Assembly: GCF_000328685.1 (NCBI RefSeq)
Contig: NC_019974.1
Span: 2,347,001 to 2,411,000 of the forward strand
DNA length: 64,000 nt
Source of the DNA: Natronococcus occultus SP4
Lineage (GTDB): Archaea > Halobacteriota > Halobacteria > Halobacteriales > Natrialbaceae
Direction: 5' to 3'
In this document: positions 23,569 to 51,868 of the stretch, piece after piece
Layout: the number at the start of each line of letters is the position of its first letter
Numbering within the stretch: position 1 is the stretch's first letter
The notes under the pieces: generated by a model
The model's input: only the letters and a program-made list of their open reading frames with translations
The model's database searches: none
What the model was told of the DNA's origin: nothing
Position numbers and translations under genes: made by a program

Positions 23569-23613
23569 CCTCGGGGTCAAGCCCCGAGGCACTCTCGCTG
23601 TATCTCTGTAGAA
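23569..23613 (+). repeat. 45-bp hairpin direct repeat (copy D)
   Basis: The unit begins CCTCGGGGTCAAGCCCCGAG, an 8-bp stem with a 5-nt loop, and ends with GCTGTATCTCTGTAGAA. It is identical over 45 bp to 24316-24360. Together the two copies bracket the DUF7344/HalOD1 cassette in direct orientation. Confidence 0.85.
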
Positions 23614-24311: not shown

Positions 24312-24360
24312 AGTACCTCGGGGTCAAGCCCCGAGGCACTCTCGCTGTATCTCTGTAGAA
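24307..24360 (+). repeat. Hairpin repeat with stop codon (copy B)
   Basis: The unit starts GGTGAAGTACCTCGGGG and ends GCTGTATCTCTGTAGAA. It differs by one base from 38730-38782 over 53 bp, and its last 45 bp equal 23569-23613. The TGA of the HalOD1 gene is its third to fifth base. Confidence 0.85.
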
Positions 24361-24715: not shown

Positions 24716-24846
24716 TTAGTCCGACGCTTCCGCCGCCGCAACCGGTTCGACGGCGATCTCCATCGTCACGCCCTCGACCTCCCACTCCTTGCGGTGGCCG
24801 TCCTCGACGGTCCGGAGCTCGTCGGCTCGGACGAACTCCGTTACGC
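24716..24846 (-). pseudogene. Orphan C-terminal frame next to the duplicated radical SAM end
   Basis: On the minus strand, directly after the distal duplicate, a coherent 42-codon frame reads VTEFVRADELRTVEDGHRKE, then WEVEGVTMEIAVEPV, and ends at TAA near 24716. It has no start codon of its own and is out of frame with the TPLA-stop ending of the duplicate. It may be the ancestral C-terminus of the radical SAM protein cut off by a frameshift or insertion, or the tail of another lost gene. Confidence 0.4.
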
Positions 24847-24889
24847 CAGCGGCGTCCGCTCGACGACCTGCCCGTCGTATGTTGGATAC
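24843..24889 (-). repeat. Distal 47-bp copy of the radical SAM gene 3' end
   Basis: This is a perfect direct repeat of 24998-25044. It encodes on the minus strand the same terminal residues (YPTYDGQVVERTPLA) but is followed by TAA instead of TGA. It lies 108 bp beyond the genuine gene end. Confidence 0.95.
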
Positions 24890-24997
24890 CGCGTCGCGAA
24901 CTTTTTCCGTTCGGGTGCGCCCTTGGCGCACCACTCACGCAAAAACTTCGATGAAAAAGACCGCTCGCTCACGCTGTTCGCTCGCGGTACAGAAGTC
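24890..24997 (-). other. 108-bp spacer element between duplicated gene ends
   Basis: Read on the plus strand it contains CTTTTTCC-nn-TCGGGT, a perfect 8-bp stem GGTGCGCC/GGCGCACC, then CTC-nn-GCAAAAA-nn-TCGA-nn-AAAAAGACCGC. The same core occurs in the spacer at 28249-28421 after etfA. On the strand of the radical SAM gene it gives two T5 tracts within about 60 bp of the stop, a possible terminator. Confidence 0.75.
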
Positions 24998-25991
24998 ACG
25001 CCAGCGGCGTCCGCTCGACGACCTGCCCGTCGTATGTTGGATACTGCTCGACGATCTCGCCGTCCTCGAGATCCCCTTCCTCGATCATCTCCTCTAAGAG
25101 CCACCAGGCGACCTCGACGTGGTCGGATTTGACGGTGTAGAACTCCTCGGGGACGCCGAGCTCGACGAACTGCTGGGGATCGGCGTACGTCTTCCCGTAG
25201 ACGAGCGTGCCGTCGTCGGTGACGTCGTCGAACTCCCGGCGGACGTTACGGGCGGCCCGCTTCAGTCGACGGCGGTGCTGGGCCGCGTCCTTGAAAACGG
25301 AGGTACAGAAGTAGACCCGTTCGTGGTCGCCCATCACTTCGAGGATCTCCTCGCGGGAGCCGTCGACGGCGCTCATGTGACCCTCCTTGAGCTCGTATCC
25401 CTCCTCTTGCATCCGGCGGTAGTTCCCGTCGGACATCTCGAACTCGTTGACGTTACAGAAGTCGGCGGCACCCTCGTCGAGAAACTCGAGGAACTCCTCC
25501 TCGGCGCGGATGCCGGGGATCTCGAAGGCCGGCGTTAGCCCCTCCTCGCGGGCGATGTAGAGAATCTCCTCCCACTCAGTGCCGTGCATGTCGCCCCACA
25601 GCTCGTAGGGCGGGTGGAAGCGGATCTCGTCTAAGCCGGCTTCCGAGAGTTTGCGCATGTTCTCGCGACCGCCCGTGATTCCGGTGTAGAGGTGGGTGTG
25701 GTGGTCCTCGCCGAACTCCTCCTTGAGCAGTTCGAGGTAGTGACAGGTGCGCTCTAAGGCCTCCTGGGGTTCGCCGCCGGTGATCGAGGTTCCCAGAGCG
25801 TCCATCCGGTGGGCCTCCTCGAGGACGTCCGCGTCGTCCTCGACCTGCCGTTCGTTCGCGTAGACGTCGGTGACGTTCTTGCGGTTCTCGCCGAGCGGGC
25901 AGTAAAAGCAGTCGCGCTGGTCGCAGTAACCGTAGACGAACAGCACCATCTTGCCGCCTTTCGCGCACTGCTCACAGCCCTTCGATATCAT
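24996..25991 (-). CDS. Radical SAM protein with CX4CX2C cluster motif
   Basis: The 331-residue protein has three cysteines at 23, 28 and 31 (GYCDQRDCFYCPLGEN), spaced CX4CX2C instead of the canonical CX3CX2C. The glycine-rich SAM motif is SITGGEPQEAL near residue 70. An extra N-terminal CxxC lies in CEQCAKGGK (6 and 9). The barrel motifs LYTGITGG and DEIRFHPP support the family. The reaction is unknown. The start at 25991 is divergent from the DUF373 gene. The last 45 codon bases are duplicated downstream. Confidence 0.83.
   Translation of the reverse strand: MISKGCEQCAKGGKMVLFVYGYCDQRDCFYCPLGENRKNVTDVYANERQVEDDADVLEEAHRMDALGTSITGGEPQEALERTCHYLELLKEEFGEDHHTHLYTGITGGRENMRKLSEAGLDEIRFHPPYELWGDMHGTEWEEILYIAREEGLTPAFEIPGIRAEEEFLEFLDEGAADFCNVNEFEMSDGNYRRMQEEGYELKEGHMSAVDGSREEILEVMGDHERVYFCTSVFKDAAQHRRRLKRAARNVRREFDDVTDDGTLVYGKTYADPQQFVELGVPEEFYTVKSDHVEVAWWLLEEMIEEGDLEDGEIVEQYPTYDGQVVERTPLA
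24998..25044 (-). repeat. Proximal 47-bp repeat at the radical SAM gene 3' end
   Basis: This segment is the authentic end of the gene (codons for YPTYDGQVVERTPLA) and is identical to 24843-24889. Such a long perfect repeat of coding sequence is too long for an ordinary transposon target-site duplication. Confidence 0.95.
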
Positions 25992-26142
25992 TCGATGGGA
26001 CGTAACCGGCCAAGCCCCAAAAACTGTGCGGAACGGCCGCGTCCGATCCTGTCCGAGGTTCACACGGGCCGATCAGCGACGATGGCCCGGAGTTTCGTCG
26101 CTCCCAGAAGACCGAAATACCGTGGTATCCAACCACGACCCG

Positions 26143-28216: not shown

Positions 28217-28248
28217 TACTGGAACTCTTCGGTAAGTGCGGGGACGAC
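28217..28248 (-). repeat. Distal 32-bp copy of the etfA 3' end
   Basis: This is a perfect direct repeat of 28422-28453. On the minus strand it encodes the etfA ending [10 protein letters not shown] and is followed by a TAG stop, whereas the genuine copy is followed by TAA. Confidence 0.95.
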
Positions 28249-28421
28249 GTCAGAACGACCTTTTTCCACTCGGGTCACTCACTTCGTTCGTGACCTCTCG
28301 TGCAAAAATCTCGACCAAAAAGACCGCACTCGCTCCCTCACGGACGCTTCACGTCCGTTCGGTTGTCGCGGTTCTCGTTCACGGGCTCACTTCGAACCGC
28401 GCACCGCTCGTGCGAAACAGT
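28249..28421 (-). other. 173-bp spacer element between duplicated etfA ends
   Basis: The plus strand carries the same core as 24890-24997: CTTTTTCC-nn-TCGGGT, a GGTCAC/GTGACC stem, CTC-nn-GCAAAAA-nn-TCGA-nn-AAAAAGACCGC. The stem sequence differs entirely but still pairs. An extra 65 bp arm nearest etfA contains GGACG/CGTCC repeats. There is no reading frame of interest. Confidence 0.75.
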
Positions 28422-29374
28422 TACTGGAACTCTTCGGTAAGTGCGGGGACGACCTCGAAGAGGTCGTCGTGGATCGCGTAGTCGGCGATATCCATGATCG
28501 GGGCGTTGGGATCGGTGTTGATCGCGACGATCGTATCCGACCCCTTCATGCCGGCGACGTGCTGGACGGCACCCGAGATGCCGATCGCGATGTAGACGTC
28601 GGGCGTGACGACCTTCCCGGACTGGCCGACCTGGCGGTTCTTGGGCAGCCAGCCGTTGTCGACGATCGGACGCGACGAGGAGATCGTCGCGTCGAGTGCG
28701 TCCGCGAGCTCTTCGATGAGCTCCAGGTTCTCCTCCTCCTCGATCCCCCGACCGACGGAGACGAGGACGTCGGCCTCGCTGATGTCGACGTCGCCACCGC
28801 CGACCTCCTCGAAGCCGGTGACCGTCGAGCGGACGGCGTCCTCGTCGATCTCGGCGTGGAACTCCTCGATCGCGGCGTTACCGGTTCCCTCGGCGCCGGG
28901 CCACTCGGCTCCGCGGATCGTGACGACGGCGCTGCCGGTCAGCTCGGTGGTCGTCTCGACCTTGCCGCCGTACATCTCGCGGGTCGCAGTCAGGGTGTCG
29001 CCGTCGGTCTCGAGGGCGACCGTGTCGGTGACGATCGGCAGATCCAGCGCGTTCGCGACGGCGGGCGCGTAGTCGAGTCCGTTGACGCTGTTGGGCGCCA
29101 GCACGTACTGGGGTGCGAGGTCGTCGTAGAGCTGCGTAAGCGTCTGGGTGTAGACGTCGTGGTTGAACTCCTCGCCGTACTCGACGGTGTGGACGGCGTC
29201 GACGCCGTTTCGGTCGAGCTTCTCGGCGAACTCCTCGACGGGGCCGCTGATGACCGCGACGTGGAGCTCGCCGCCGGTCTCGTCGGCCAGCTGACGACCC
29301 GCCGTGATGACCTCGTAGCTGACGTCGCGCAGCTCGCCGCGGCGGTGGTCTGCTACGGCCAGTACATCAGTCAT
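28421..29374 (-). CDS. etfA: Electron transfer flavoprotein alpha subunit
   Basis: The 317-residue FixB/EtfA protein starts [20 protein letters not shown]. It has the C-terminal FAD-binding domain with [40 protein letters not shown] and [20 protein letters not shown], a strong family signature. It carries electrons from acyl-CoA or other flavin dehydrogenases to an ETF:quinone oxidoreductase. The start overlaps the etfB stop by 4 bp. Its 3' end is duplicated downstream around an unusual spacer. Confidence 0.95.
28422..28453 (-). repeat. Proximal 32-bp repeat at the etfA 3' end
   Basis: This is the authentic end of etfA (codons for [10 protein letters not shown] plus two bases of the stop). 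It is identical to 28217-28248. Confidence 0.95.
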
Positions 29375-51653: not shown

Positions 51654-51727
<74 letters not shown>

Positions 51728-51730
51728 CTT

Positions 51731-51849: not shown

Positions 51850-51868
51850 AATCGCGCCCGGCCCGCTT
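51850..51868 (+). repeat. 19-bp 3' end of tRNA-Lys (distal repeat)
   Basis: This is identical to 51712-51730. Similarity extends left as GTTCA with one extra C. It lies just before the pheA 3' end and resembles an attachment-site pair with a very short insert. Confidence 0.9.

Follow-up and report, generated by a model that had tools for sequence, protein, structure and literature searches.

Short hairpin inserts between two copies of a gene end: candidate gene-restoring mini-elements in haloarchaea

The end of a radical SAM gene in Natronococcus occultus SP4 is repeated on both sides of a short, hairpin-bearing insert, and the layout recurs at other genes. The insert is best explained as a non-autonomous mini-element that enters in an att-like manner and whose upstream copy of the gene end restores the gene, a reading to which we give a probability of about 45%. 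Such an element would consist of two DNA or RNA hairpins (SL1, then a T5/A5 core), carry no gene of its own and sit exactly at the gene end, flanked upstream by the working copy and downstream by the original end that it has displaced. In the likeliest course of events it arrives with a mimic, its own version of the final codons and stop of the target. Recombination close to the repeat's left edge would then make the mimic the end of the gene and move the host end downstream. The scheme would further involve a trans-acting enzyme that catalyses site-specific recombination, a mobile form of the element, circular or otherwise, and a means of acquiring new target genes.

The locus lies in a 64,000-nucleotide stretch of the home genome, N. 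occultus SP4 (the window). The radical SAM gene (24996..26063, minus strand, as for all parts of the locus; Radical_SAM PF04055 by Pfam match) has its working stop, TGA, at 24996-24998. As the original prediction described, a 47-bp gene-end sequence (24998..25044) recurs exactly at 24843..24889, around a 108-bp insert (24890..24997) and 155 bp apart start to start. Its other observations also hold, namely that the proximal copy ends in TGA and the distal copy in TAA (24841-24843), and that the C-terminus is intact in both, each translating as YPTYDGQVVERTPLA. By repeat alignment the match extends to 53 bp at 96% (24840-24892 and 24995-25047), and identity ends within the stop codon. Read in gene order, the insert contains SL1 (CCGCGAGCGAACAGCGTGAGCGAGCGG, with a GAAC..GTGA type loop; 24961..24987, fold z -2.5), followed by the T5/A5 core hairpin (TTTTTCATCGAAGTTTTTG...GGAAAAAGTTCG; 24897..24958, fold z -5.2), which belongs to a covarying family. 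Directly past the distal copy is an ectopic ileS 3' end (24716..24838, by sequence match), roughly the last 120 bp of that gene. Intact ileS stands at G000:C1:72775 and has no insert in the home genome; ileS inserts are present in G008 and G011.

Three trivial origins are ruled out. Within 450 kb around the locus only two other direct repeats of at least 45 bp occur at a spacing of 800 or less, and this rarity, together with gene-end controls, excludes chance. An assembly artefact is excluded by the presence of the arrangement in most relatives in the genus, each with its own sequence, and simple tandem gene duplication by an insert that is not gene sequence. A search for distant copies of the radical SAM tail bounding a large island returned weak matches only.

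The second carrier in the window is the ETF-alpha gene (28421..29374, minus strand). Here a 32-bp repeat, with its proximal copy at 28422-28453 and its distal copy at 28217..28248 by repeat alignment, encloses a 173-bp insert (28249..28421) with a TTTTTGGTCGAGATTTTTG core at about 28304-28321; the distal copy is followed by TAG and flank as at a congener's empty site. No genes were found inside inserts, those of the window (108 and 173 bp) being too short for any. The original prediction had proposed a genome-wide search for repeats that overlap gene stops. In a census spanning about half of the home genome, 1299 gene ends in 1.65 Mb were scanned with interior gene pieces as controls; radical SAM and pta alone beat all controls downstream, once a spurious ORF covering a tRNA tail and a stretch of low complexity are set aside; ETF-alpha had not passed the ORF filter. 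This makes pta the third carrier (44 bp at 95%, within the scanned 1.65 Mb). A purH-like gene outside that portion is the fourth, with a repeat of 51 bp. A comparison of inserts between genes within single genomes, made in search of the high identity that would prove recent jumping, gave 84% at best.

The direction of the event can be read from empty sites. Among nine genomes of the genus the pta insert occurs in the home genome only, and the nearest congeners have TAGTCGA at the stop and no insert. In the home genome the downstream pta copy runs into the junction TAGTCGAAC, equal to that of the congeners, and the upstream copy ends TAACACCCGCG. Similarly, the hisH insert is confined to G005, and its downstream copy enters a flank seen in G006 and other sisters. 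At ETF-alpha, G005 has a plain junction, TAGCCGATCG, similar to what follows the home downstream copy. By this comparison, the upstream stop at pta and ETF-alpha is the new one, supplied by the insert, and the downstream stop the original. At pta, hisH and ETF-alpha, then, the target end is restored and the original end displaced, as in integrative elements. At the radical SAM locus the distal copy is followed by the ileS fragment, which was not seen there in any relative inspected, and this precludes a clean empty-site comparison.

These comparisons bear on an alternative in which the duplication is local: replication stalls at a terminator hairpin past the stop, a copy of the gene tail arises on its far side by slippage or by recombination between short repeats, and repeated expansion and contraction keep the copies alike. 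The congeners' pta and hisH stops pass into the flank with no hairpin in between; where the insert is present, the original stop and flank stand at the distal copy. Hairpin and gene-end copy thus arrived together, which argues against pure slippage. Nor would swapped stops and a third-position bias be expected of a non-coding copy.

Both features are present. The 159 differences between the gene-end copies of 64 units split 28/27/104 over first, second and third codon positions. Of the 64 downstream copies, 59 still have a stop, which in 23 is of another type than upstream, and five have lost it. A rough neutral-decay expectation places 46% of differences at third positions and has lost stops outnumbering swapped ones; against it the binomial p is about 6e-7 for positions and 2e-8 for stops, values overstated in that the units are not phylogenetically independent. 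Because of the third-position bias, and because stops are swapped far more often than lost, both copies appear to have a coding history. An ETF-alpha integrase island in G002 serves as a positive control for this signature: a PF00589 tyrosine integrase adjoins the gene end, and between a 50-codon mimic (a gene-end copy of about 155 nt) and the original end that it displaced there are 12 differences, all of them at third positions, with TAA versus TAG as stops. Archaeal integrated elements are known to behave in this way, bringing a new stop with them (PMC6563490). Counting the island of G002, phage-type integrase islands start at the ETF-alpha stop at four loci of other Natronococcus (PF00589 shown for L350; homologues in L351, L354 and L356). 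No recombinase gene was found in or beside the mini-inserts, the integrase islands being confined to ETF-alpha of other Natronococcus.

The same data weigh on a second alternative, MITE-like transposition with a very long staggered target duplication in the manner of IS1549/IS1634, surviving only where the duplicate spans a gene end. The direct repeats that flank the inserts are indeed long and variable (about 28-122 bp; reach upstream of the stop, median 33 nt, range 14-177), IS1549 and IS1634 make repeats of 8-514 bp (PMC2266710), the polarity of insertion at pta and hisH would fit, and a case at a gene 5' end would survive as well. However, copies that are identical at insertion, one of which then drifts as non-coding sequence, do not predict the observed bias in differences and stops; swapped stops and synonymous changes imply that each copy has a coding past, which argues against plain target-site duplication. 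The repeat also often ends within the stop codon (27 of 62 units) rather than anywhere past it, terminal inverted repeats are not shared, and long repeats were not seen at any intergenic insertion. By reading, the insert ends at pta, radical SAM and ETF-alpha have no inverted terminal repeats, such as a MITE would share with an autonomous transposon. We regard this alternative as improbable. An inverted-repeat-like right end appears in one case, the intergenic copy L005.

The hairpin itself defines a family. The core pattern TTTTTGGTNNAGATTTTT gives 68 matches in 41 genomes, versus none for the reversed control; a strict arm-matching scan for cores proved too narrow. Of 183 outer-arm pairs in 61 distinct cores, 173 are complementary, versus 50-69 when the arms are slid; the core arms covary by C-G/G-C swaps, and single cores fold with z of about -4 to -5. 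From its T5 runs and hairpins, the core is probably also a two-way transcription terminator. A direct repeat flanks 30 of 40 distinct core sites in the home family; in other families it does so at 3 of 21, with 22 of 305 for control positions at the same loci. Seven haloarchaeal plasmids bear the hairpin, and the end repeat is absent in those inspected; the intergenic copies seen likewise have no long repeat. Two intergenic hairpins on different replicons, L005 (C1:623480) and L006 (C3:52376), have in common an extended left part starting CAGGCGGAACAGGTAACG. A viral source was considered and rejected: the 29 pattern matches in IMG/VR lie nearly all on AT-rich contigs and are read as chance, the one at 54% GC is without the right arm, and a phage collection gave no match. 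A mirrored layout, with the 5' coding part of a gene (about 24 codons) repeated across the core, is seen at L309, L305 and L273 (in G002, G001 and G005), so gene starts can be involved too. This mirrored case, unequal recombination in tandem arrays, and the repeat-less intergenic and plasmid copies count against a mini-element.

The radical SAM end was compared in 31 genomes and 80 named loci, and its repeat is frequent, not universal, among them. By a strict count an end copy is present at 25 of the 80 loci, versus none for shuffled tails. It is found in Natrialbaceae, Haloferax, Salinigranum, Haloplanus and Halomarina; no repeat was found in the congeners G004 and G001 or in G011 of the same family. 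Whole units also stand in tandem, as two exact 136-bp units in G017 and at least five in L204. The arrangement at this gene is old and recurrent across several families, repeatedly lost and turned over. At 16 of the 25 loci, the best or tied match of the distal copy is its own gene, and lineage-specific synonymous states are common to both copies. This sharing requires recent capture or gene conversion, and with the tandem arrays it indicates that recombination between copies is also active; the copies at one gene are homogenised or turned over. The original prediction, in which an element carrying or copying the target end keeps the gene functional, gives the best fit and is supported in part. 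Empty sites at pta and hisH, new upstream stops at pta and ETF-alpha and the coding signature strengthen it. It is qualified by the absence of any gene from the insert, by the turnover of copies, and at radical SAM by an arrangement that is old, recurrent and marked by losses, and so no fresh insertion.

Local duplication draws its support from these observations: the whole-unit arrays, the match to the own gene, core-only sites that exist without a tail copy, and ETF-alpha copies that are identical in G000 and not in G007. Set against the joint arrival at pta and hisH, this leaves slippage a possible, if rather unlikely, origin. That the arrangement persists at radical SAM and ETF-alpha in different families, and that an integrase island uses the ETF-alpha end, would also agree with maintenance by the host, the displaced end serving as a decoy attachment site or as part of a regulatory 3' structure with its identity under selection. 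That explanation is highly improbable, as many close relatives lack the arrangement at these genes and decayed end copies exist at OTC.

The proposed mini-element would have a wide choice of targets. In genomes of relatives, hairpin and gene-end repeat occur also at dph6, OTC, ileS and a hisH-like amidotransferase, among others, and the targets further include a KH-domain protein gene and metallo-lactamase, SDR and citrate synthase-like genes; in all, more than 10 protein genes and many tRNA genes show a hairpin between two gene-end copies. One integrase normally serves one target, so that finding a single type of hairpin at the ends of many unrelated genes counts against an integrase-like reading.

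In the window, the 3' end of a tRNA-Lys gene (51712..51730, plus strand) is repeated past a hairpin insert at 51850..51868 (plus strand), as found by repeat search. Among 72 home-genome tRNAs searched, the last 19-23 bases recur after about 85-140 bp in about 12, a count that excludes two true tandem tRNAs. The inserts hold a GAAC..GTGA-like hairpin and an inverted copy of the tRNA end. In home units such as those at C1:3406811 and C1:2398712 an inverted T-arm copy is present; together with the repeated tRNA end it would fold as a hairpin, in some units with a bulged T or C. The bulged base recalls the extrahelical bases of integron attC sites. Compared with the gene, many downstream copies contain one additional T or C (or CC) immediately within their left edge (TTC^T^GAGACG at dph6, TTC^T^GACGTC at ETF-alpha, GTC^T^AACC at pta), as do some tRNA copies (GTTCA^T^AATCCC). 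Among 50 junction types a left-edge extra nucleotide is found in 25, versus 8 for a mirrored shift (p=2.6e-4), and it could mark the recombination point. A broader proposal would be a Halobacteria-wide class of protein-less mini-elements that move with 20-120 bp of the targeted tRNA or protein gene end, the bulged-base hairpin being the recombination site and one type of enzyme serving many targets, rather as if integron cassettes worked the other way round. We consider this generalisation doubtful.

Known systems match the inserts in part. Thaumarchaeal iMGEs use tyrosine recombinases at the 3' ends of tRNA and protein genes, and NitEve-E2 brings a new stop, TAG to TAA (PMC6563490); crenarchaeal att sites measure 29-69 bp. 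The inserts resemble such archaeal integrative elements in the 3'-end direct repeat, the restored gene, the new stop and overlapping targets, including a diphthamide gene. In contrast, those elements are far larger and gene-carrying, many with an integrase, whereas the inserts are about 50-170 bp, geneless, encode no recombinase and bear one hairpin type at many targets. The PATE, SMR and MITE repeats of Haloquadratum are short, transposase-free and mobile, with palindromes (SMR-A, about 110 bp) (PMC3119063). Unlike the inserts with their flanking repeats, PATEs and SMRs do not duplicate their target, nor are they reported at gene stops, and the MITEs there carry terminal inverted repeats that link them to a transposon (PMC3119063). 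A PATE- or IS605-like origin, which entails no target duplication, is thus at odds with the repeats found. IS1549 and IS1634 produce long, variable repeats as here, but are full IS with a transposase, and their repeats, simple duplications of the target, have not been described as copies of gene ends (PMC2266710). Archaeal U-tract terminators likewise have U-runs past the stop, and no gene-end copy is described for them (PMC8716108). In a literature search with subscription journals largely outside its coverage, no description of the hairpin and gene-end-copy arrangement was found. Its recurrence at protein and tRNA genes suggests a miniature insert that restores gene ends, of a kind that is, provisionally, new. 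If so, a non-coding element would restore the gene it enters at many targets, a strategy so far represented by much larger integrative elements. It would explain widespread, apparently undescribed gene-end duplications in haloarchaea, and it bears on archaeal 3' ends and terminators; the empty sites and stop swaps offer a clean system for the origin and spread of gene-end mimics.

Two further repeats deserve mention. By reading, the end of a dnaK-like gene near G000:C1:3652262 (L002) looks tripled, with other stem-loops and different stops. In the window, a 45-bp exact repeat, CCTCGGGGTCAAGCCCCGAGGCACTCTCGCTGTATCTCTGTAGAA, lies at 23569-23613 and 24316-24360 (spacing 747) around two small ORFs; this pair is possibly a small element unrelated to the gene-end inserts.
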